Positions 1 through 32,839 of a stretch of DNA of 33,572 nt are shown here, piece after piece. The DNA comes from Thermodesulfobacteriota bacterium (GTDB lineage: Bacteria > Desulfobacterota > WTBG01 > CAIYCZ01 > CAIRTM01). The translations under genes and the position numbers were made by a program. The stretch covers positions 1 to 33,572 of the forward strand of contig JANQGV010000221.1 of the NCBI GenBank assembly GCA_028282925.1, read 5' to 3'. Position 1 is the stretch's first letter, and each line of letters starts with the position of its first letter. The notes under the pieces were generated by a model. It was not told the DNA's origin and did not search any database. It worked only from the letters and a program-made list of their open reading frames with translations.

Positions 1-415
1 TGTGCAACGGTGCCGCCGGCACGAAAACATAGTAACCGGCCCGGTTACAGGCCTGCTGCAGCTTGCCCATCATGATACCGGCCTGGGCCGAAACCGTCAT
101 GCCGTTCTCGTTAAGCTCCAGAACCCGGTTCATCCCGGTCATGTCGATGAGAATATTTTTACCGGGACTTCCCTTGGGTTGACCGTAAATGCTCGACCCG
201 CCGCCCCGCACCACAACAGGGATGCCCTCCCGGTTGGCCAGTGACATGATTTTGGACACCTCTTCAGTTGAGCCGGGCCGGACCACAACGGCGGGAGGCG
301 TGCCGTTGAAAAGGCTGGCATCCTTGGAATAGGCAAACGTTGCCGTGGTGTTGCTCGTCACGTGGGGTTCACCCACTATGGCAATAAGGGCTTTTGTGAT
401 TGCAGAGGTATCCAT
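1..415 (-). CDS. FAD-linked oxidase (GlcD-like), N-terminal part, runs off the left edge
   Basis: This is the first 138 codons of a protein whose C-terminus lies outside the window. It begins at an ATG at 415 with a good AAGGAG ribosome site just upstream. The sequence reads as the N-terminal half of a PCMH-type FAD-binding domain: PPAVVVRPGSTEEVSKIM is the usual first strand-helix unit, followed by GIPVVVRGGGSS, the glycine-rich loop that contacts the FAD pyrophosphate, then a strand with ILIDMTGMNRVLE and the segment with QAGIMMGKLQQ. Known relatives oxidise 2-hydroxy acids (glycolate, D-lactate) or aromatic alcohols; the substrate-binding half is not visible, so the substrate cannot be called. 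It is the last visible gene of the MarR-controlled minus-strand cluster, 33 bp after the secreted bilin-reductase-like gene, and could supply or take electrons in that pathway. Confidence 0.85.
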   Translation of the reverse strand, partial: MDTSAITKALIAIVGEPHVTSNTTATFAYSKDASLFNGTPPAVVVRPGSTEEVSKIMSLANREGIPVVVRGGGSSIYGQPKGSPGKNILIDMTGMNRVLELNENGMTVSAQAGIMMGKLQQACNRAGYYVFVPAAPLH

Positions 416-1409: not shown

Positions 1410-1889
1410 TCAGGTACAACGCGTTATTTTAAAACAGCATTCCGAATCGCCGGCGGGCATGTGTTTAATCCGCTCCCACACGGCGACCTTGTATTTCTCA
1501 CCCATAACGCAGTCCATATCGCAGATCAGCGGACACGGATCAGGCAGTTTGTACTTCCTGGTGGCCTCGAGATGCGGACATTTTTCAAGGTGTTCATACC
1601 AGGCGGGCCGTCCCTCTTCGTCCTTTTTTTCAACCCATATTTTCCATCCGGTTGCCGGAAACATGTCTATTTCCGCCATCATGATATCGCCGATATCTTT
1701 GCCCTCAAACTGTGCGGCCCGTTTTTTAAAGTTTTCTTCAAAAAGATCCTCGTATATCTTTTTGCCTTTTTCTTCACCGTATACGTTCACCAGTGACTGG
1801 TACAGCAGGGGCAGCTTCAAAGCGGTCATTTCAATAAGCATATCTCGTTGTTTTTCCCAGGGTATTTCTTTACCGGTTTGCTTTTCCAT
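1410..1889 (-). CDS. L-2-amino-thiazoline-4-carboxylate hydrolase-like family protein
   Basis: A 159-residue cytoplasmic protein with a strong AAGGAG site six bases before the ATG. The N-terminal half is helical. The C-terminal half has the features I associate with the ATC hydrolase-like family (PF14196): a CPHLEA segment, then CPLICDMDCVMGE, then a final strand ending GDSECCFKIT. The named family member opens the thiazoline ring in an L-cysteine pathway, but most relatives are uncharacterised and anaerobes carry many of them. It lies between two bilin-reductase-like genes, 20 bp after the upstream one, which argues for a role tied to the same substrate rather than cysteine synthesis. The six cysteines in the last 60 residues could bind a metal or act in catalysis. 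The family assignment is from motif memory and should be treated as probable; the biochemical role is unknown. Confidence 0.6.
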   Translation of the reverse strand: MEKQTGKEIPWEKQRDMLIEMTALKLPLLYQSLVNVYGEEKGKKIYEDLFEENFKKRAAQFEGKDIGDIMMAEIDMFPATGWKIWVEKKDEEGRPAWYEHLEKCPHLEATRKYKLPDPCPLICDMDCVMGEKYKVAVWERIKHMPAGDSECCFKITRCT

Positions 1890-1909: not shown

Positions 1910-2614
1910 TTAAAAAACAGCGTCAAAAACCAGGTGCGTCTTTTCTTCGCCGAACACATCGACCATAAACGGATATCCCGGATCGTTTGCTTTCATGAGC
2001 TTGCTGGTGGCCGCCTTTTTCCTGAGATAAAAATCCCTCTCATCAGCGTCGGCAAGGGGTGCGGCCTGCCGCCACAACTCAATATATTTTTCAACATAGG
2101 CTTTGGCTACCAGCGGCACCTTTGCAACGCCCGCATCTGAAATGGTGGCAACAACTTTGTAGGGAGAAAGGGTGTAGACGGAGAGCGAAGGAAGGTTTGT
2201 AGCCTTGTCTATAACCGTATCGCCCAGCGTTTCAAGCGCATCGTCCCGCAGGTCTTTTATGCATGCAACATATGTTTCGGCATAGCCGGGCCAGACCACG
2301 TAATCCATCATGGGTACGAAGTCGAATATAGGCACGTTCATAACCTCAGGAACAACCGTCATGTTGCACCACAGGATCGGAAAATTGTGATTTTCGTCCG
2401 GCCAGATCATTGCCGTTGCCTCCTCAACGCCGGTGTCGTGCAGGTTGATGGCACAAAAAACCGCTTTTCCAATCTTGTCGGCGGTATATATCTCCAGGTC
2501 GATTGTGCCTCCGGCCGCCTCGATGTGCCTGAGTTGTGGGTCGATCTCAGCGGCCCGCAATGACAGTGCTTCCATGCTTTTTTTTGCTGCTTCTACAAAA
2601 TCGTTATGTGCCAT
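1910..2614 (-). CDS. Ferredoxin-dependent bilin reductase-like protein (cytoplasmic)
   Basis: A 234-residue soluble protein, ATG at 2614 behind an AAGGGG ribosome site. It is the clearest of the four paralogues for superfamily assignment. From residue 69 the stretch MIWPDENHNFPILWCNM aligns without gaps with the core of Synechocystis PcyA (VMFPEPLYGLPLFGCDI), sharing both prolines and the cysteine, and the match continues to a D-x-x-P at the same spacing. A YTLSPYK segment corresponds to the FSEYC region, and the C-terminal NDPGYPFMVDVFGEE corresponds to NDKTRRVLEKAFGEA of PcyA. Known members reduce linear tetrapyrroles with electrons from ferredoxin. The residue at the place of PcyA Asp105 is Asn84 and that of His88 is Thr67, so a different reaction or ligand is likely. 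It follows the ferredoxin-fused paralogue by 79 bp and probably shares its transcript. Confidence 0.72.
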   Translation of the reverse strand: MAHNDFVEAAKKSMEALSLRAAEIDPQLRHIEAAGGTIDLEIYTADKIGKAVFCAINLHDTGVEEATAMIWPDENHNFPILWCNMTVVPEVMNVPIFDFVPMMDYVVWPGYAETYVACIKDLRDDALETLGDTVIDKATNLPSLSVYTLSPYKVVATISDAGVAKVPLVAKAYVEKYIELWRQAAPLADADERDFYLRKKAATSKLMKANDPGYPFMVDVFGEEKTHLVFDAVF

Positions 2615-2693: not shown

Positions 2694-3674
2694 TTACGGT
2701 TCGATGATTGAAAGGGCGACATCAGCCATTTCATCACCTAGAAATTTATTGAGAGACCCGACGCCGGGGTCGTTTTCCTTGTACACGGCCCTGATCTGTT
2801 TACGCCGTTCGTGGATCAATTTCATGGATTCCGATTCCCTTTTTTTCGGCCGGGCATCTTTATATATATTCAGCCAGGCTTGCAGGTAATCGGTGGCACA
2901 TTTGAAGATCAAGTCGACGTTTTTTGTGGTTTTTTCCACTGTGCCGGTAATGATGTACGGGGAGTGCAAAGCCCGTACCCAGTGAAACACACTGGGTTTC
3001 ATGCCCGGCACCGCTGAATAGGTGTGGTAGAGATCGTCCAGCGGCTCAAAGTAGTATTTCTGCAGGTGATCCTGGTTGCGGCCCACGTCGTCGCTGGGGA
3101 GCAGGTCGCAAATGAAAAAAATATGCTCGTCTGATTCATCCCAGTCCATAACATAGTAGGGTATATCATATTCGGCACCCGGTGTAAGAATCACTACATC
3201 GGCCACCATGGTCCCGTAAAAGTTCATGCGGGATAGGCCTATTTTTTCAAGTTTATCAGCCGCATATGCCCGGTAAAAACACGTCTGCCCTTCAAGATCG
3301 AATTCATTCAGGCTGCGAATGTCCGTACCGCAATGATCGAACACCTGCACCGGCTTCAGCTCCTGTAACATGTCGGTCAGATGCTGCAGGATGGGGGTAA
3401 ACTGCGGCGTTTCAGCCGCAACACTGCCCTGCTGTTGTGTAACAGGTGGCGAACCGTCTTTGACCGCTATCTTCACACCCGGTATAAAGATGGCGTTTAC
3501 CGGGCATTCACGTATGCAGGTTCCGCACTCAAGACATTTTTCAGGATCGGATATCCGGCAAATACCTTTTTGCAACTCCAGAATTTTCATGGGACAGGCA
3601 TCAACACAAACCCCGCAGCCGATGCAGATTTCACTGTCAACGGTAAAAGCTGTTGTACTGTTTTGCTTACTCAT
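2694..3674 (-). CDS. 2[4Fe-4S] ferredoxin fused to a bilin reductase-like domain
   Basis: A 326-residue protein with GGAGG nine bases before the ATG. Residues 8-66 form a bacterial 2[4Fe-4S] ferredoxin: C17-x2-C20-x2-C23-x3-C27-P and C47-x2-C50-x2-C53-x3-C57-P. A polar linker (about 67-105) joins it to a domain paralogous to 1910-2614: YAADKLEKI near 137, LTPGAEYDIPYYVMDWD (P165, P172, D177), CDLLP, a HSPYI segment and a terminal ENDPGVGSLNKFLGD. Of the four paralogues only this one keeps an Asp (D177) where PcyA has catalytic Asp105. Bilin reductases take electrons from separate ferredoxin, so a built-in ferredoxin supports the superfamily call and implies a self-contained low-potential reductase in the cytoplasm. 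A plain ferredoxin fused to an unrelated domain is the alternative. No signal peptide is present. Confidence 0.75.
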   Translation of the reverse strand: MSKQNSTTAFTVDSEICIGCGVCVDACPMKILELQKGICRISDPEKCLECGTCIRECPVNAIFIPGVKIAVKDGSPPVTQQQGSVAAETPQFTPILQHLTDMLQELKPVQVFDHCGTDIRSLNEFDLEGQTCFYRAYAADKLEKIGLSRMNFYGTMVADVVILTPGAEYDIPYYVMDWDESDEHIFFICDLLPSDDVGRNQDHLQKYYFEPLDDLYHTYSAVPGMKPSVFHWVRALHSPYIITGTVEKTTKNVDLIFKCATDYLQAWLNIYKDARPKKRESESMKLIHERRKQIRAVYKENDPGVGSLNKFLGDEMADVALSIIEP

Positions 3675-3740: not shown

Positions 3741-4532
3741 TTACCAGCACCAGTCCATGCCGCCGTCGACGCTCAGGTTTTGGGCGGTGATATAGGAGGC
3801 CGCATCGGATGCCAAAAAAGCCACCGCCGCGGCGATTTCTTCGGCCGTGCCGGCACGCGGTATTAAAAGCTGCCCGTTCTTGACCGATTCCTCCACCAGC
3901 CAGTCGGCGAAGGTCCCGCGTTCCATCATCATTTCATCCTCTACCCGGTTATAGATATCGGTTGCAACAACCCCCGGCGAGACACAGTTGACCCGGATAC
4001 CCATGGGTGCCAGGCTTTTGGCCAGTGTTTTAGTAAACATGATGACCGCTGCCTTTGATGGTGCATATGCACCGGACATACCTTTGCCGCTGCGCGCCAT
4101 CAGGGTAGCCACCGTCACAATCGATCCGTGGGTGCCGCAGTCGACCATGTTTTGGCCGCATGCCCGGCAAAAGGCGAAAGAACCCCGCGCATTGACCGCG
4201 AACACCCGGTCCCACTCCTCCATGCCCAGTTCGAGTGCCGAAGATGCCGATTCGCTGATCGCGGCGTTTGAAACCGCAACGTCTACCGGACCAAAAGCAT
4301 CAGTTGCCTGCTGTATAAGACATGCAATGTCCTTATCCTGCGAAACGTCGGTCTGGATATACAGGGCGGTCCCGCCCTTTTCTTTAATTTCACCGGCAAC
4401 GCGCTCTCCGTTCTCGCGGTTGCGGTTGGCGATGACAACGCGGCCGCCTTCGTCGGCCAGTAAATGTGCAATGCCGCGTCCGATGCCGGTTCCGGCCCCG
4501 GTTATGATTATGTGTTTGTCTTTGAATCTCAT
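3741..4532 (-). CDS. Short-chain dehydrogenase/reductase (SDR), classical type
   Basis: A 263-residue NAD(P)-dependent oxidoreductase. The start at 4532 is chosen because GGAGG lies four bases upstream; an ATG at 4565 in frame adds 11 unlikely residues. The Rossmann motif is TGAGTGIGRG near residue 8, the NAA-type motif is SNAAIS, and the active site Tyr and Lys are in YAPSK. The catalytic Ser that normally sits 13 residues before the Tyr is a Thr (VTVATL), a less common but workable substitution. The C-terminus ends DGGMDWCW, like the DGG closing segment of FabG-type enzymes. Its substrate is not evident. It is the first gene of the putative operon and is preceded by a copy of the MarR operator, so it is probably expressed when the MarR ligand, perhaps the pathway substrate, is present. 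Confidence 0.85.
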   Translation of the reverse strand: MRFKDKHIIITGAGTGIGRGIAHLLADEGGRVVIANRNRENGERVAGEIKEKGGTALYIQTDVSQDKDIACLIQQATDAFGPVDVAVSNAAISESASSALELGMEEWDRVFAVNARGSFAFCRACGQNMVDCGTHGSIVTVATLMARSGKGMSGAYAPSKAAVIMFTKTLAKSLAPMGIRVNCVSPGVVATDIYNRVEDEMMMERGTFADWLVEESVKNGQLLIPRAGTAEEIAAAVAFLASDAASYITAQNLSVDGGMDWCW

Positions 4533-4574
4533 GCCGCCTCCATAAGCGTTGGGTACAATATCCAAATCTGTTAA

Positions 4575-4606: not shown

Positions 4607-5050
4607 TTATTGTATAAGATTATTGTAAAGCTTTCTCAATACCGTTTTGCAGCTATCGATTTCTTCACTGCTCAGCCCCTCTACGGCCTTTTGCATATTG
4701 AGCAATCCCAGGGGTATCAACTGCTCTTCCAGCGCTTTTCCTTTGGGCGTCAGGTACACCTGTTTTTGACGGGAATCGTCTTTGTCCTTGATGCGGACCA
4801 CCAGGTTGCGCTTTTCAAGACCGTCGATAAGGCGCGTAATAGCGGCCCTGTCTTTTCCGATAACCTCGGCGATCTGATAGGGAAACCGGCCGTCTTCCTG
4901 CCACAATAGAAGTAAAATCATCCACTGCTCGGATGTAACATCAAAGCCTTCGCCGGTAAAAAGCCACTGGAGCCGTGTAGAAAGAGCACGGGTTGTTTTA
5001 TTGAGCAGGAATGCCAGGGAGTCCTCAGGTTTAAAATTTTTCACATCCAT
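4607..5050 (-). CDS. MarR family transcriptional regulator of the bilin-reductase-like cluster
   Basis: A 147-residue winged-helix regulator. The N-terminal helix (LAFLLNKTTRALSTRLQWLF) is the dimer and ligand region; the DNA-binding part runs from TSEQWMILLLLWQEDG through IAEVIGKDRAAITRLIDGLEKRNLVVR (recognition helix) to the wing with DDSRQKQVYLTPKG. MarR proteins bind short palindromes as dimers and usually let go when an aromatic or other small ligand binds. Two shared palindromes flank the gene, one over its own promoter and one between it and the SDR, which points to autorepression and repression of the operon. There is no ribosome site before the ATG; the predicted transcription start lies almost at the start codon, so the message may be leaderless. 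Confidence 0.9.
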   Translation of the reverse strand: MDVKNFKPEDSLAFLLNKTTRALSTRLQWLFTGEGFDVTSEQWMILLLLWQEDGRFPYQIAEVIGKDRAAITRLIDGLEKRNLVVRIKDKDDSRQKQVYLTPKGKALEEQLIPLGLLNMQKAVEGLSSEEIDSCKTVLRKLYNNLIQ

Positions 5051-10310: not shown

Positions 10311-10364
10311 AGACTATCATCAAACATAAACGCCTCAACGATGAGCGTTTCGATCAATAAGAAA

Positions 10365-10496
10365 GGCAATTGGAAAATGTTCGGATACAAGGCGTGCGAA
10401 TCCGAAGGCATGAGACGTACGTGGTTGTGCGCTTCAGTGACGAAGGATGAGTGCAACCCCTATATAATCGGGATAGATGGACGTTTTCCAGTTGCC
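10365..10496. repeat. Palindromic intergenic repeat, copy A
   Basis: A 132-bp imperfect palindrome between convergent genes. It starts GGCAATTGGAAAATGTTCGG and ends with the near-complement GACGTTTTCCAGTTGCC. Inside are the family marks ACAAGGCGTGCGAATCCGAA, GGCATGAGACGTAC, AGTGACGAAGGATGAG and ATAGATGGACGTTTTCC. Copies at 14219-14345, 16895-17199, 17203-17326 and 32715-32839 share these segments. It could fold as a long hairpin in either transcript and might end transcription of both genes. Confidence 0.85.
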
Positions 10497-10504
10497 TCCC
10501 ACTG

Positions 10505-14218: not shown

Positions 14219-14345
14219 CGAGGCTGCAGAAAAATGTCCCGGCGCATGGCATGCGCTGTTGTGAGGAGAGAGGCGTACTTGGTTGTATGTCACAGCGACA
14301 AACAATGCGCATAACGCGGAAGGTGGATGTTTTCCGTCAGCCTTC
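14219..14345. repeat. Palindromic intergenic repeat, copy B (diverged)
   Basis: A diverged copy: it starts CGAGGCTGCAGAAAAATGTC and ends GGATGTTTTCCGTCAGCC. The centre GAGGCGTACTTGGTTGTATG and CACAGCGACAAACAATGCGC match the other copies with scattered changes. It lies between the SDR and TPR genes on the plus strand. Confidence 0.75.
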
Positions 14346-16117: not shown

Positions 16118-16879
16118 ATGAGCAAAACCTCTGTTAGCGGTATCGCAAAAAGCATCAAGACCGACGCGTCGCTGTTTCCGGCAGAAAAAGAATCTTTTTT
16201 ACCGGACGACTATACGTTCATCCTGTTTTTTTCTTTTCCGTTTTATCCAAAATTGAAGCTTTACAAAAAAACCTACTCACTGCACGGACACCTTTCCCTG
16301 TGCCTCGGCAAAACAGTGTACCAGCTCCATGATCCTAAAAAACTGAAGTCCCGGTTCCTGGTTTCCAAAATGCCCCTTGATACCTGGCTGTATGAGGACG
16401 GGTGCTGGCACGACTGGGACCCCGTGTCGCCTACCTACCGGCATGTACACCTGTACGAAAAGGCCGAGGTCAAGCGCACCAGCGTTTTCTATGTAGCGCT
16501 AAAAGGGCTCCCCCAGAGCAAACTCACCTTTTACGAAAACTATTTCAACACCATCGAACGCAACTTTCATAACGGCAGCTACCGCTTTCATCTTCACTTC
16601 AACAACTGTTCGCATGTCATTAATGAAGTATTGTACAATGAAGGCTGGCTGAAAAAAAGGGTCCTGGACTCTGTGCCGGTTATCGCACTGCAAAGACTGG
16701 CCGCGGCCTGGAAGCGGCTGGGTCTTGATTTTACCAGCGGTGTAATACGCAACCGGCGCGAGCCGGGCTTCCACCTGCACCCGCTGTGCCTGGGCATGCT
16801 CTCCCTCGCCCCCGAACAGGCGCTTATCCGCAGGCTGAACGGTAGTAGCGATAAAGCGCAAGAAAAGCGTTGCACATGA
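16118..16879 (+). CDS. Unknown protein with an NNCSH motif (possible papain-like fold)
   Basis: A 253-residue protein I do not recognise as a named family. It is basic and rich in aromatic residues, with no signal peptide, although a short hydrophobic stretch FILFFSFPFY lies near residue 35. The segment FHLHFNNCSHVINEVLYNE (near residue 160) resembles the Cys-containing helix of DUF4105- or LRAT/NlpC-type papain-like proteins, where N-C is followed by a helix carrying the nucleophile; an earlier HGHLSLCLG could hold the His-bearing strand. That is a guess from pattern only. It starts 20 bp after the Nudix gene with a weak ribosome site and probably shares its transcript. Two palindromic repeats follow it. 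Confidence 0.55.
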   Translation: MSKTSVSGIAKSIKTDASLFPAEKESFLPDDYTFILFFSFPFYPKLKLYKKTYSLHGHLSLCLGKTVYQLHDPKKLKSRFLVSKMPLDTWLYEDGCWHDWDPVSPTYRHVHLYEKAEVKRTSVFYVALKGLPQSKLTFYENYFNTIERNFHNGSYRFHLHFNNCSHVINEVLYNEGWLKKRVLDSVPVIALQRLAAAWKRLGLDFTSGVIRNRREPGFHLHPLCLGMLSLAPEQALIRRLNGSSDKAQEKRCT

Positions 16880-16894
16880 GCGTTTTACGAGATG

Positions 16895-17199
16895 CAGTGA
16901 GGCTTGCGGAAAATGTTCAGATTTAAGGCGTGCGTTAGCCTGAGGAATGAGGCGCTCTAGTCCCAATTTAAGCGAGGGTTCGTAGCGAGGGTGCTGAAAT
17001 GCCCGGAAGTACAGGCTGCTCGGACCGGAAGCCGAAGAATCGTACTTTGTAGTACGTTGATAAGGCTGAAGGGAGAACAGCCTGTAGATTCGGGTATTGC
17101 GGCAGCCGCAGCAGAATGCTTCGCTTAATTTGGGACTAGCAGTACGTCGCAGTGACGAAGGCTGCGCACAATGCAAAAGATGGGCGTTTTCCAAAACAC
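16895..17199. repeat. Palindromic intergenic repeat, copy C, split by a nested element
   Basis: The left half (16895-16956: GAGGCTTGCGGAAAATGTTC, then AAGGCGTGCG and GAATGAGGCG) and the right half (17140-17199: AGTACGTCGCAGTGACGAAGG, then GCGCACAATGCAAAAGATGG and CGTTTTCC) join into one family copy when the 16957-17139 element is removed. The right outer arm has decayed. Confidence 0.75.
16957..17139. mobile_element. MITE-like palindromic element nested inside repeat copy C
   Basis: A 183-bp element bounded by CTAG. The ends are inverted: CTAGTCCCAATTTAAGCGA on the left and, read on the other strand, CTAGTCCCAAATTAAGCGAA on the right. The palindrome continues inward with ACAGGCTG and CAGCCTGT and a small central hairpin, GTACT-TTGT-AGTAC. 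No coding region is present. CTAG may be either the duplicated target or part of the ends. Any mobilising transposase lies elsewhere. Confidence 0.7.
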
Positions 17200-17202
17200 A
17201 GA

Positions 17203-17326
17203 GAGGCTGGTGGAAAATGTTCAGATACAAGGCGTGCGAATCCGAAGGCATGAGACGTACTGATTGTACGTTGCAATGCCTGAGGATGAAGCACAACACA
17301 GTAGATGGACGTTTTCCGCCAGCCTC
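17203..17326. repeat. Palindromic intergenic repeat, copy D
   Basis: An intact 124-bp copy with outer arms GAGGCTGG and CCAGCCTC. Inner arms are GGAAAATGTTCAGATAC and GTAGATGGACGTTTTCC. It shares long identical segments with copy A. It ends four bases before the stop of the convergent gene at 17330. Confidence 0.88.
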
Positions 17327-27111: not shown

Positions 27112-28983
27112 ATGAACAGTTTAACCTATAAAGGCTATATTGGAAAAATTTTAAGGGTCAATTTGACCGACGGCACGTGGTCTGATTTCTCCCTTACCGA
27201 TGAACTCGTTGAAAAATATATCGGCGGAGCCGGACTGGCGGCCCGCATCCTGTACGATGAACTGGAGCCCGGCGTTGATCCCCTGTCACCGGAGAACAAA
27301 GCAATATTCCTGACCGGACCCGTCAACGGCACAATGATTCCGGCAGCCTCCCGCGTAGGACTCTATGCCAAATCACCTCTGACCAATTCCTTTTTCCACA
27401 GTTCGGCCGGCGGCCATTTCGGGGCCGAACTGAAATATGCAGGCTACGACGGTATCATTCTCGAGGGTGCTTCCGAAAAACCGGTGTACCTTTTTATCGA
27501 CGAAGGCAATGTAGAGCTGCGCGATGCTTCACACCTCTGGGGCCTGGACTCCAATACGGTCCAGCATGAAATGCATGAAGAGCTCGGGTCCGAAGAAATC
27601 CACATCGCCGCCATCGGCCCGGCCGGTGAAAACCTGGTGCGGTTCGCCTGCGTAATCTGCGGATGCCGGGCTTTGGGGCGCGGCGGACTCGGTGCGGTGC
27701 TTGGTTCAAAAAAAGTAAAGGCCGTGGCCGTTCGCGGACAGGGAAGCGTGGAAGTTCCCGACATGCGCAAAATGCGCCTGCTGCTGGACGAACTTTTTGC
27801 AAAATTCAATGCCAACCCGTCCACCTCGGAAATCATGCCCCGCTACGGCACCCCGGTTCTGGTAAACGCCAACAACACTCTCGGCATGTTCGGACATAAT
27901 AACTGGCAGGACGAGTTTTATACCGAATCCGAAGGCCTGTCGGGCGAAACCATGCGCAAACAGCTGGTCAAGCGTGACAAATCATGTTTTGCCTGCCCGG
28001 CCCGTTGCAGCAAATTCAGCATTGTGGGCGAGGGACAGAATGAAGGCTGCTGCGTTGAGGGACCTGAATATGAAGACATTTTCTCGCTGGGCTCAATGTG
28101 CGGTCATAATAATCTGGATGTTGTGGCCGCCGGGGAGCGCCTGTGCGACGATATCGGGGTCGATGCCATTGAAGCCGGCGTTTCCATAGCCTTTGCCATG
28201 GAATGCTATGAAAAGGGTCTGATTACAGACAAGGAGACCGACGGCATCGAACTGCGCTTCGGCCGTGACGACCTTATTCTGCCTCTGATTGAAAAAATGG
28301 GGCGCCGCGAAGGCAACCTGGGCAATCTGCTGGCTGAAGGCGTTAAGCGTGCTTCCGAGCAGGTCGGACAGGGATCTGAATTTTTTGCCATGCAGAACAA
28401 AGGACTCACCTTCCCGGGTCACTCCGCACGCGGCATGCCCGGTTTCGCCCTGGGCTATGCAACCGGACCACGGGGTGCCAGCCATCATGACAGCCGGCCC
28501 ACCGGCGAGCGAACCGGCCTTGTAAAACGGGATACCATCGAAGGAAAGGGCGAGTACACGGCCCGCATCAACCATTTGAATATCCTCACCGATTCCATGA
28601 TCGTCTGCCATCTGCCCGAAGCAATCTGGGGTCCGCTGGATATTACCGACAACGTTGTCCGGTGCCTTAATGCGGTAACCGGAATGGATCTGACCCTTGA
28701 CCAGGCCCGCAAAACCGCCGAGCGTATCTGGAACATGATCAGGATGTTCAGCGTACGGGAAGGCTATCGTCGCGAACACGACACCCTGCCCGGCCGCTTC
28801 ATGGAAGAACCGATTAAAACCGGCCCGTCCAAAGGCATGGTTATTTCCCGCGAAATGCTGGACTATATGCTTGATCAGTATTACGAATTCCGGGGCTGGG
28901 ACAAAGAGACCGGAGTTCCTACCCGGGAAAAGCTTGAGGAACTGGGCCTTGAAGACCTCACAGAGGATGCAGCAAACCTGTAA
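27112..28983 (+). CDS. aor: Tungsten-dependent aldehyde ferredoxin oxidoreductase (AOR family)
   Basis: A 623-residue enzyme, full family length. The N-terminal domain (residues 1-210) binds tungstopterin; GGAGLAARILYDEL and AASRVGLYAKSPLT are typical. The [4Fe-4S] ligands are C292-x2-C295-x3-C299 (SCFACPARC) and probably C499 (ILTDSMIVC). The pterin-binding region around 435-470 has HSARGMPGFALGYATGPRGA and SHHDSRP. Family enzymes oxidise aldehydes to acids with ferredoxin, or in some anaerobes reduce acids. With the MoaD and ferredoxin it forms a tight three-gene operon with promoter at 26375 and a terminator at 29015. The specific aldehyde is unknown; an aryl or benzoyl-type substrate cannot be distinguished from sequence. 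Confidence 0.93.
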   Translation: MNSLTYKGYIGKILRVNLTDGTWSDFSLTDELVEKYIGGAGLAARILYDELEPGVDPLSPENKAIFLTGPVNGTMIPAASRVGLYAKSPLTNSFFHSSAGGHFGAELKYAGYDGIILEGASEKPVYLFIDEGNVELRDASHLWGLDSNTVQHEMHEELGSEEIHIAAIGPAGENLVRFACVICGCRALGRGGLGAVLGSKKVKAVAVRGQGSVEVPDMRKMRLLLDELFAKFNANPSTSEIMPRYGTPVLVNANNTLGMFGHNNWQDEFYTESEGLSGETMRKQLVKRDKSCFACPARCSKFSIVGEGQNEGCCVEGPEYEDIFSLGSMCGHNNLDVVAAGERLCDDIGVDAIEAGVSIAFAMECYEKGLITDKETDGIELRFGRDDLILPLIEKMGRREGNLGNLLAEGVKRASEQVGQGSEFFAMQNKGLTFPGHSARGMPGFALGYATGPRGASHHDSRPTGERTGLVKRDTIEGKGEYTARINHLNILTDSMIVCHLPEAIWGPLDITDNVVRCLNAVTGMDLTLDQARKTAERIWNMIRMFSVREGYRREHDTLPGRFMEEPIKTGPSKGMVISREMLDYMLDQYYEFRGWDKETGVPTREKLEELGLEDLTEDAANL

Positions 28984-30845: not shown

Positions 30846-30991
30846 GGGGGATAACGTGCATCCTGTTGAAACACTATTATTTGTAAAGGGAGACCACTGG
30901 AAAAGATTCAGAACCGCCGCAACCCGGCAGATGAGCATTTTTCGACTGTCTTCCGGATTCAAAATGGGAGAGGAGCAACAAAGTAAGAATT

Positions 30992-32714: not shown

Positions 32715-32839
32715 CAGGCTGTTCGAAAATGTTCAGATACAAGGCGCGTGAAAGCCATTGATACGAGGCGTACTTGTTTGTACGCCGCAGTGTCGAGGGC
32801 TGAGCGCAACACAGTAGATGGACGTTTTCCAACAGCCTG
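32715..32839. repeat. Palindromic intergenic repeat, copy E, inside the efflux operon
   Basis: A 125-bp copy with outer arms CAGGCTGTT and AACAGCCTG, then CGAAAATGTTCAGATACAAG on one side and AGTAGATGGACGTTTTCC on the other. The centre GAGGCGTACTTGTTTGTACG is itself a small hairpin. It ends 15 bases before the GTG start of the RND gene. Confidence 0.88.

Follow-up and report, generated by a model that had tools for sequence, protein, structure and literature searches.

In known bilin reductases (FDBRs), ferredoxin delivers electrons one by one to a bound bilin, and Asp residues provide the protons. These enzymes have been investigated in photosynthetic organisms and their relatives, where the ferredoxin is a separate protein. 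An open reading frame near one end of the window (the whole stretch of 33,572 nt analysed here) appears to hold both partners in one chain. Is this a natural fusion of a ferredoxin and a bilin reductase, and is a bilin what it reduces?

The fused gene and its relatives

The ORF starts with ATG and has zero internal stops. Its parts, together with two active-site codons, are listed below.

2694..3674, minus strand: fused gene, 2[4Fe-4S] ferredoxin plus FDBR-superfamily domain, 326 aa (ORF, Pfam profiles, alignment)
3489..3647, minus strand: 2[4Fe-4S] ferredoxin domain, residues 10-62, Cys 17/20/23/27 and 47/50/53/57 (Fer4 matches; invariant Cys)
3402..3476, minus strand: linker, residues 67-91, predicted disordered, 12-29% identical among relatives (model; alignment)
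2697..3401, minus strand: FDBR/RCCR-fold domain, residues 92-326 (profile, PDB sequence and fold matches)
3144..3146, minus strand: codon of D177, equivalent to PcyA Asp105 and GtPEBB Asp99 (pairwise views and FDBR alignment)
2769..2771, minus strand: codon of D302, equivalent to GtPEBB Asp219 (FDBR alignment; active-site pair according to PMC6755814)

Two Pfam Fer4 motifs were found within residues 10-62, each with the pattern CxxCxxCxxxC(P) (C17-P28 and C47-P58). The Fe_bilin_red profile (PF05996) matches residues 128-318 with 52.6 bits (E 6e-14; curated cut-off 31). A first-pass annotation had described a complete ferredoxin with eight Cys in front of a reductase-like domain, and this description holds. 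The top NCBIfam match of the ferredoxin domain is of the HgcB type, with 56.7 bits under a cut-off of 99, indicating ferredoxin resemblance only. The RCC_reductase profile (PF06405) also matches the protein (27.9 bits, cut-off 24.9), more weakly than PF05996, and assignment as a red chlorophyll catabolite reductase by best family was therefore rejected. Among PDB sequences, the C-terminal part matches tomato phytochromobilin synthase HY2 (E 1.5e-9) and Guillardia GtPEBB (E 2e-4).

Seven other genomes (G001, G002, G003, G006, G007, G008 and G014), which belong to the same family or class as the source, have the same two-domain ORF, with 44-71% identity. These are MAGs, mostly of Deltaproteobacteria or Thermodesulfobacteriota, with several apparently derived from lakes. 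G006 and G007 have a second fused copy and G001 a partial one. Within the phylum, the architecture occurs in eight of 395 genomes, including one with a split form (G010). No fused relatives were found in viral contigs and plasmids, and an unfused paralogue (L064, from G013) gave no match to a phage collection. The eight Cys and both Asp (D177 and D302) are unchanged in 10 out of 10 aligned proteins. Where dS could be computed, the two domains have dN/dS values of about 0.1-0.3.

In the split form (L031/L059), a TAA follows the ferredoxin, after which AGGAAAGGGG, resembling a ribosome-binding site, and an ATG open the reductase, giving two adjacent genes. Fused and split forms make up one clade (100/100) with the split form nested inside (92/88), in a tree whose known-FDBR reference branches are long and whose long-branch joins were flagged, where any placement among the FDBR lineages would be tentative. 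The nested position of the split form fits a secondary fission. One might take the separate genes of this relative as a hint that an assembly or frame artefact joined two genes in the others. However, independent MAGs of several genera share the fusion, the Cys are conserved and both domains are under purifying selection, which leaves this explanation with a practically negligible probability. The fusion is thus a natural one, as had been proposed. The suggestion that the ferredoxin acts as a built-in electron donor is also favoured at the sequence level, by conservation of the fusion across genera and by the split ferredoxin and reductase pair.

Predicted fold and active-site residues

An AlphaFold2 model of the fused protein, based on 12 aligned sequences, has a mean pLDDT of 72.6. 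Residues 92-326 mostly score 80-95, the ferredoxin part about 60 and linker residues 67-91 below 50, and domain placement is not fixed by the model. With a flexible linker of 25 residues, many placements of the ferredoxin relative to the reductase are allowed. As indicated by Foldseek against the PDB, the model has the alpha/beta/alpha-sandwich fold of PcyA, PebA, PEBB and HY2 (HY2 E 4.6e-10, PcyA E 2.5e-9). Matches 1 to 45 are HY2, PcyA, PebA, PebS, PEBB, RCC reductase and two chains of a chloroplast motor complex (8xqw and 8xks, deposited under the names PcyA1/PcyA), with coproporphyrinogen oxidase coming next. In the fold comparison, identity to known FDBRs is just 14-19%. A viral library gave only two matches at E<=0.001, among them a phage PcyA-type protein. 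Thus, the predicted C-terminal fold is that of the FDBRs rather than an unrelated one, and sequence, profile and fold agree on the superfamily assignment made earlier.

The active-site columns were read from an alignment with four known FDBRs (PcyA, PebA, GtPEBB and HY2). D177 shares its column with PcyA Asp105 and GtPEBB Asp99, confirming the position claimed for it, and D302 shares its column with GtPEBB Asp219. According to PMC6755814, GtPEBB requires both Asp99 and Asp219, and HY2 of vascular plants carries Asn in place of the first Asp. In the column of GtPEBB Arg215 the fused protein has Y298, while the second Asp (D302) is kept. Membership of PcyA itself was rejected, as Glu76 and His88 are missing and S148 and V160 occupy those columns. 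D177 was also said to be the only Asp at this site among the paralogues. This is correct inside the window, where the fused gene has Asp and the other three copies have N, N and E. Genome-wide it does not hold, as four further paralogues (L009, L011, L013 and L014) also carry Asp.

Paralogues, gene neighbourhood and bilin supply

Among 395 genomes of the phylum, 12 have PF05996 matches above the cut-off. All 12 belong to the class of the source and hold 6-17 superfamily copies each. The source genome (G000; loci L001-L024 and L091-L100) has 14, of which one is fused. No PF05996 match was present in G004, a 95% complete genome of the same family, and the expansion is therefore not family-wide. 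Many class members also have several matches per genome, up to 5, to the coproporphyrinogen-oxidase-like PF01218, and one such protein (L098, 5350-6108) adjoins an FDBR-fold gene. Around the fused gene, the following features were identified.

2..415, minus strand: FAD-linked oxidase (FAD_binding_4 type via its L056 homologue), cut by the contig end
449..1240, minus strand: second unfused FDBR-fold paralogue, signal-peptide-like N-terminus, Asn at the Asp105 site (profile, alignment)
1410..1889, minus strand: ATC_hydrolase-family protein (PF14196); a homologue adjoins the fused gene in two other genomes
1910..2614, minus strand: unfused FDBR-fold paralogue, Asn at the Asp105 site (profile, alignment, predicted fold)
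3741..4565, minus strand: short-chain dehydrogenase (SDR), directly upstream of the fused gene; near the gene in 6 loci
4607..5050, minus strand: MarR-like regulator, by sequence inspection alone; near the fused gene in 4 loci

For the paralogue at 1910-2614, the predicted fold matches that of the reductase domain of the fused protein, and in 5 genomes a paralogue of this type lies next to the fused or split gene. The product of 449-1240 is possibly exported, judging from its N-terminus, in which case not every superfamily member could use cytosolic ferredoxin. A homologue of the FAD-linked oxidase lies near the fused gene in 4 loci. Other recurrent neighbours are a CCG/Fer4 protein, an FAD-dependent oxidoreductase and an aldo-keto reductase with Fer4, and the recurring regulators are TetR or MarR by inspection. 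At L053, an aldehyde:ferredoxin oxidoreductase gene directly follows the fused gene. Such genes were observed near fused genes at L062 (3902-5713) and L053 (9021-10988), and in the window at 27112-28983; their product is a possible source of reduced ferredoxin. The window also contains dispersed direct repeats (10360-10497, 14221-14343, 16876-17325, 30916-30951 and 32716-32838), mostly intergenic, with units of 36-74 nt and about 63-92% similarity between them, which probably represent a repeated element of the genome.

Elsewhere in the genome, flavin and flavodoxin-like enzymes are frequent neighbours of the paralogues. Those on C90, C220 and C261 lie beside RND, YCF48-like, DUF1329 and DUF1302 genes, a gene combination associated with monoterpene metabolism in Castellaniella (PMC6394551). 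At L100, L099 and L097, these surroundings resemble the Ame monoterpene cassette.

Searches of 14 genomes did not detect heme oxygenase (PF01126), with a control search positive in three known genomes, and the phytochrome PHY domain was not found in 13. The MAGs searched for heme oxygenase are 59-100% complete, and its joint absence across all 14 is hard to explain as missing sequence. Matches to HutW, which opens heme anaerobically, were set aside as evidence, as they fall under the family cut-off and the HutW family also matches 14 of 14 controls. The lineage has therefore enlarged a tetrapyrrole-reductase fold without a recognised bilin supply. With 6-17 copies per genome and neither heme oxygenase nor phytochrome found, 'bilin reductase' denotes a fold and a likely mechanism, and a bilin substrate is only putative. 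As a statement of function, the bilin reductase of the first-pass annotation was overstated, since the PF01126 and PHY searches lean against a bilin derived from heme oxygenase. Biliverdin made by heme oxygenase is probably not the substrate; more likely candidates are scavenged tetrapyrroles and other hydrophobic conjugated compounds.

Proposed function and comparison with known systems

We consider it reasonably probable that the fused protein is a low-potential reductase with its own electron supply, acting on a conjugated substrate that heme oxygenase probably does not produce. The N-terminal 2[4Fe-4S] ferredoxin would accept low-potential electrons from the cellular ferredoxin pool or from an oxidoreductase, and the flexible linker would let it dock on the reductase domain. 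Electrons would then pass singly to the conjugated substrate in the FDBR-fold pocket, with D177 and D302 as putative proton donors, for a net 2-electron (or 2+2) reduction in which the reductase domain would need no further cofactor. The substrate may be handled together with the surrounding cluster of SDR, FAD oxidase and second FDBR-fold protein. Cluster content, internal electron transfer, docking and the radical mechanism are proposed by analogy. The redox genes nearby (SDR, FAD-linked oxidase, CCG/Fer4 protein, aldo-keto reductase with Fer4 and, at L053, aldehyde:ferredoxin oxidoreductase) speak for this proposal. The low identity to known FDBRs, the fusion of only 1 in 14 members and the exported-looking paralogue in the cluster speak against it. 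Tentatively, a class of anaerobic bacteria may have turned the fold into a broad set of reductases for compounds other than heme-oxygenase-derived bilins, with the fused protein as a self-contained member.

A narrower version of the favoured explanation is that the expanded family applies FDBR chemistry to other hydrophobic conjugated compounds, e.g. terpenoid, steroid or chlorophyll-derived, and to no bilin. The copy number, confined to one class, agrees with this, as do the paralogues beside the monoterpene-linked gene set (PMC6394551) and the flavin and flavodoxin-like enzymes that commonly adjoin them. The fused gene itself, however, lies outside such an RND/DUF1329-type cassette, and we regard this version as plausible but somewhat short of probable. 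Rather unlikely, in our estimate, is a true bilin reductase acting on biliverdin- or phycobilin-like linear tetrapyrroles scavenged from algal or cyanobacterial debris. Nearly all solved fold relatives do act on tetrapyrroles, the GtPEBB Asp pair is kept, several fused relatives are lake MAGs by title, and heterotrophs have pre-PcyA proteins that act on biliverdin (PMC10151467). Set against these points are the missing heme oxygenase and phytochrome, the Tyr in place of GtPEBB Arg215 and the make-up of the pre-1 and pre-3 clusters, which typically hold globin and V4R and often heme oxygenase genes (PMC10151467); none of these was recognised among the typed neighbours of the fused gene in the part of the neighbourhood scanned.

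The ferredoxin domain might instead feed another enzyme, such as the adjacent unfused FDBR-fold protein, with the fused FDBR-fold domain as a binding or docking module. In 5 genomes a second FDBR-fold gene does lie beside the fused gene or the split pair, and the PcyA-like chain of the chloroplast motor complex (8xqw, 8xks) suggests that the fold may serve non-catalytic roles. Yet both Asp are kept in every fused copy while Asn replaces the Asp105 equivalent in the neighbour, and we judge this arrangement improbable. A one-chain version from an apparently anaerobic lineage makes the fold's other substrates and the electron route to the pocket testable. Spectroscopic work would benefit from having a single polypeptide, and so would bilin supply in synthetic biology, should bilins be accepted.

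In comparison with known systems, red chlorophyll catabolite reductases (RCCR; PF06405) share the fold and a weak profile match with the fused protein, which scores lower there than with the bilin reductase profile; the solved ones are plant enzymes without a fused ferredoxin. The pre-PcyA proteins are likewise FDBR-superfamily members in non-photosynthetic bacteria (PMC10151467). Within their pre-1 and pre-3 clusters lies a gene for a separate Fe-S protein, and a natural ferredoxin fusion is not mentioned in that paper. A 2026 FEBS J paper reported two uncharacterised metagenomic clades (PMC13193486), which might include the fused family. No description of a bilin reductase with a ferredoxin domain or fusion was found in the limited literature searched, where PF05996 appeared in one unrelated paper. 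With the FDBRs (PcyA, PebA/PebS, PEBB and HY2; PF05996), the fused protein shares fold, family and the Asp105/Asp99 and Asp219 positions. It differs in lacking PcyA Glu76 and His88, in its 14-19% identity and in a host without detectable heme oxygenase or phytochrome. Known FDBRs use a separate ferredoxin, whereas here a 2[4Fe-4S] ferredoxin is part of the same chain, a natural fusion that, as far as the literature searched extends, is a previously undescribed variant of a known superfamily.
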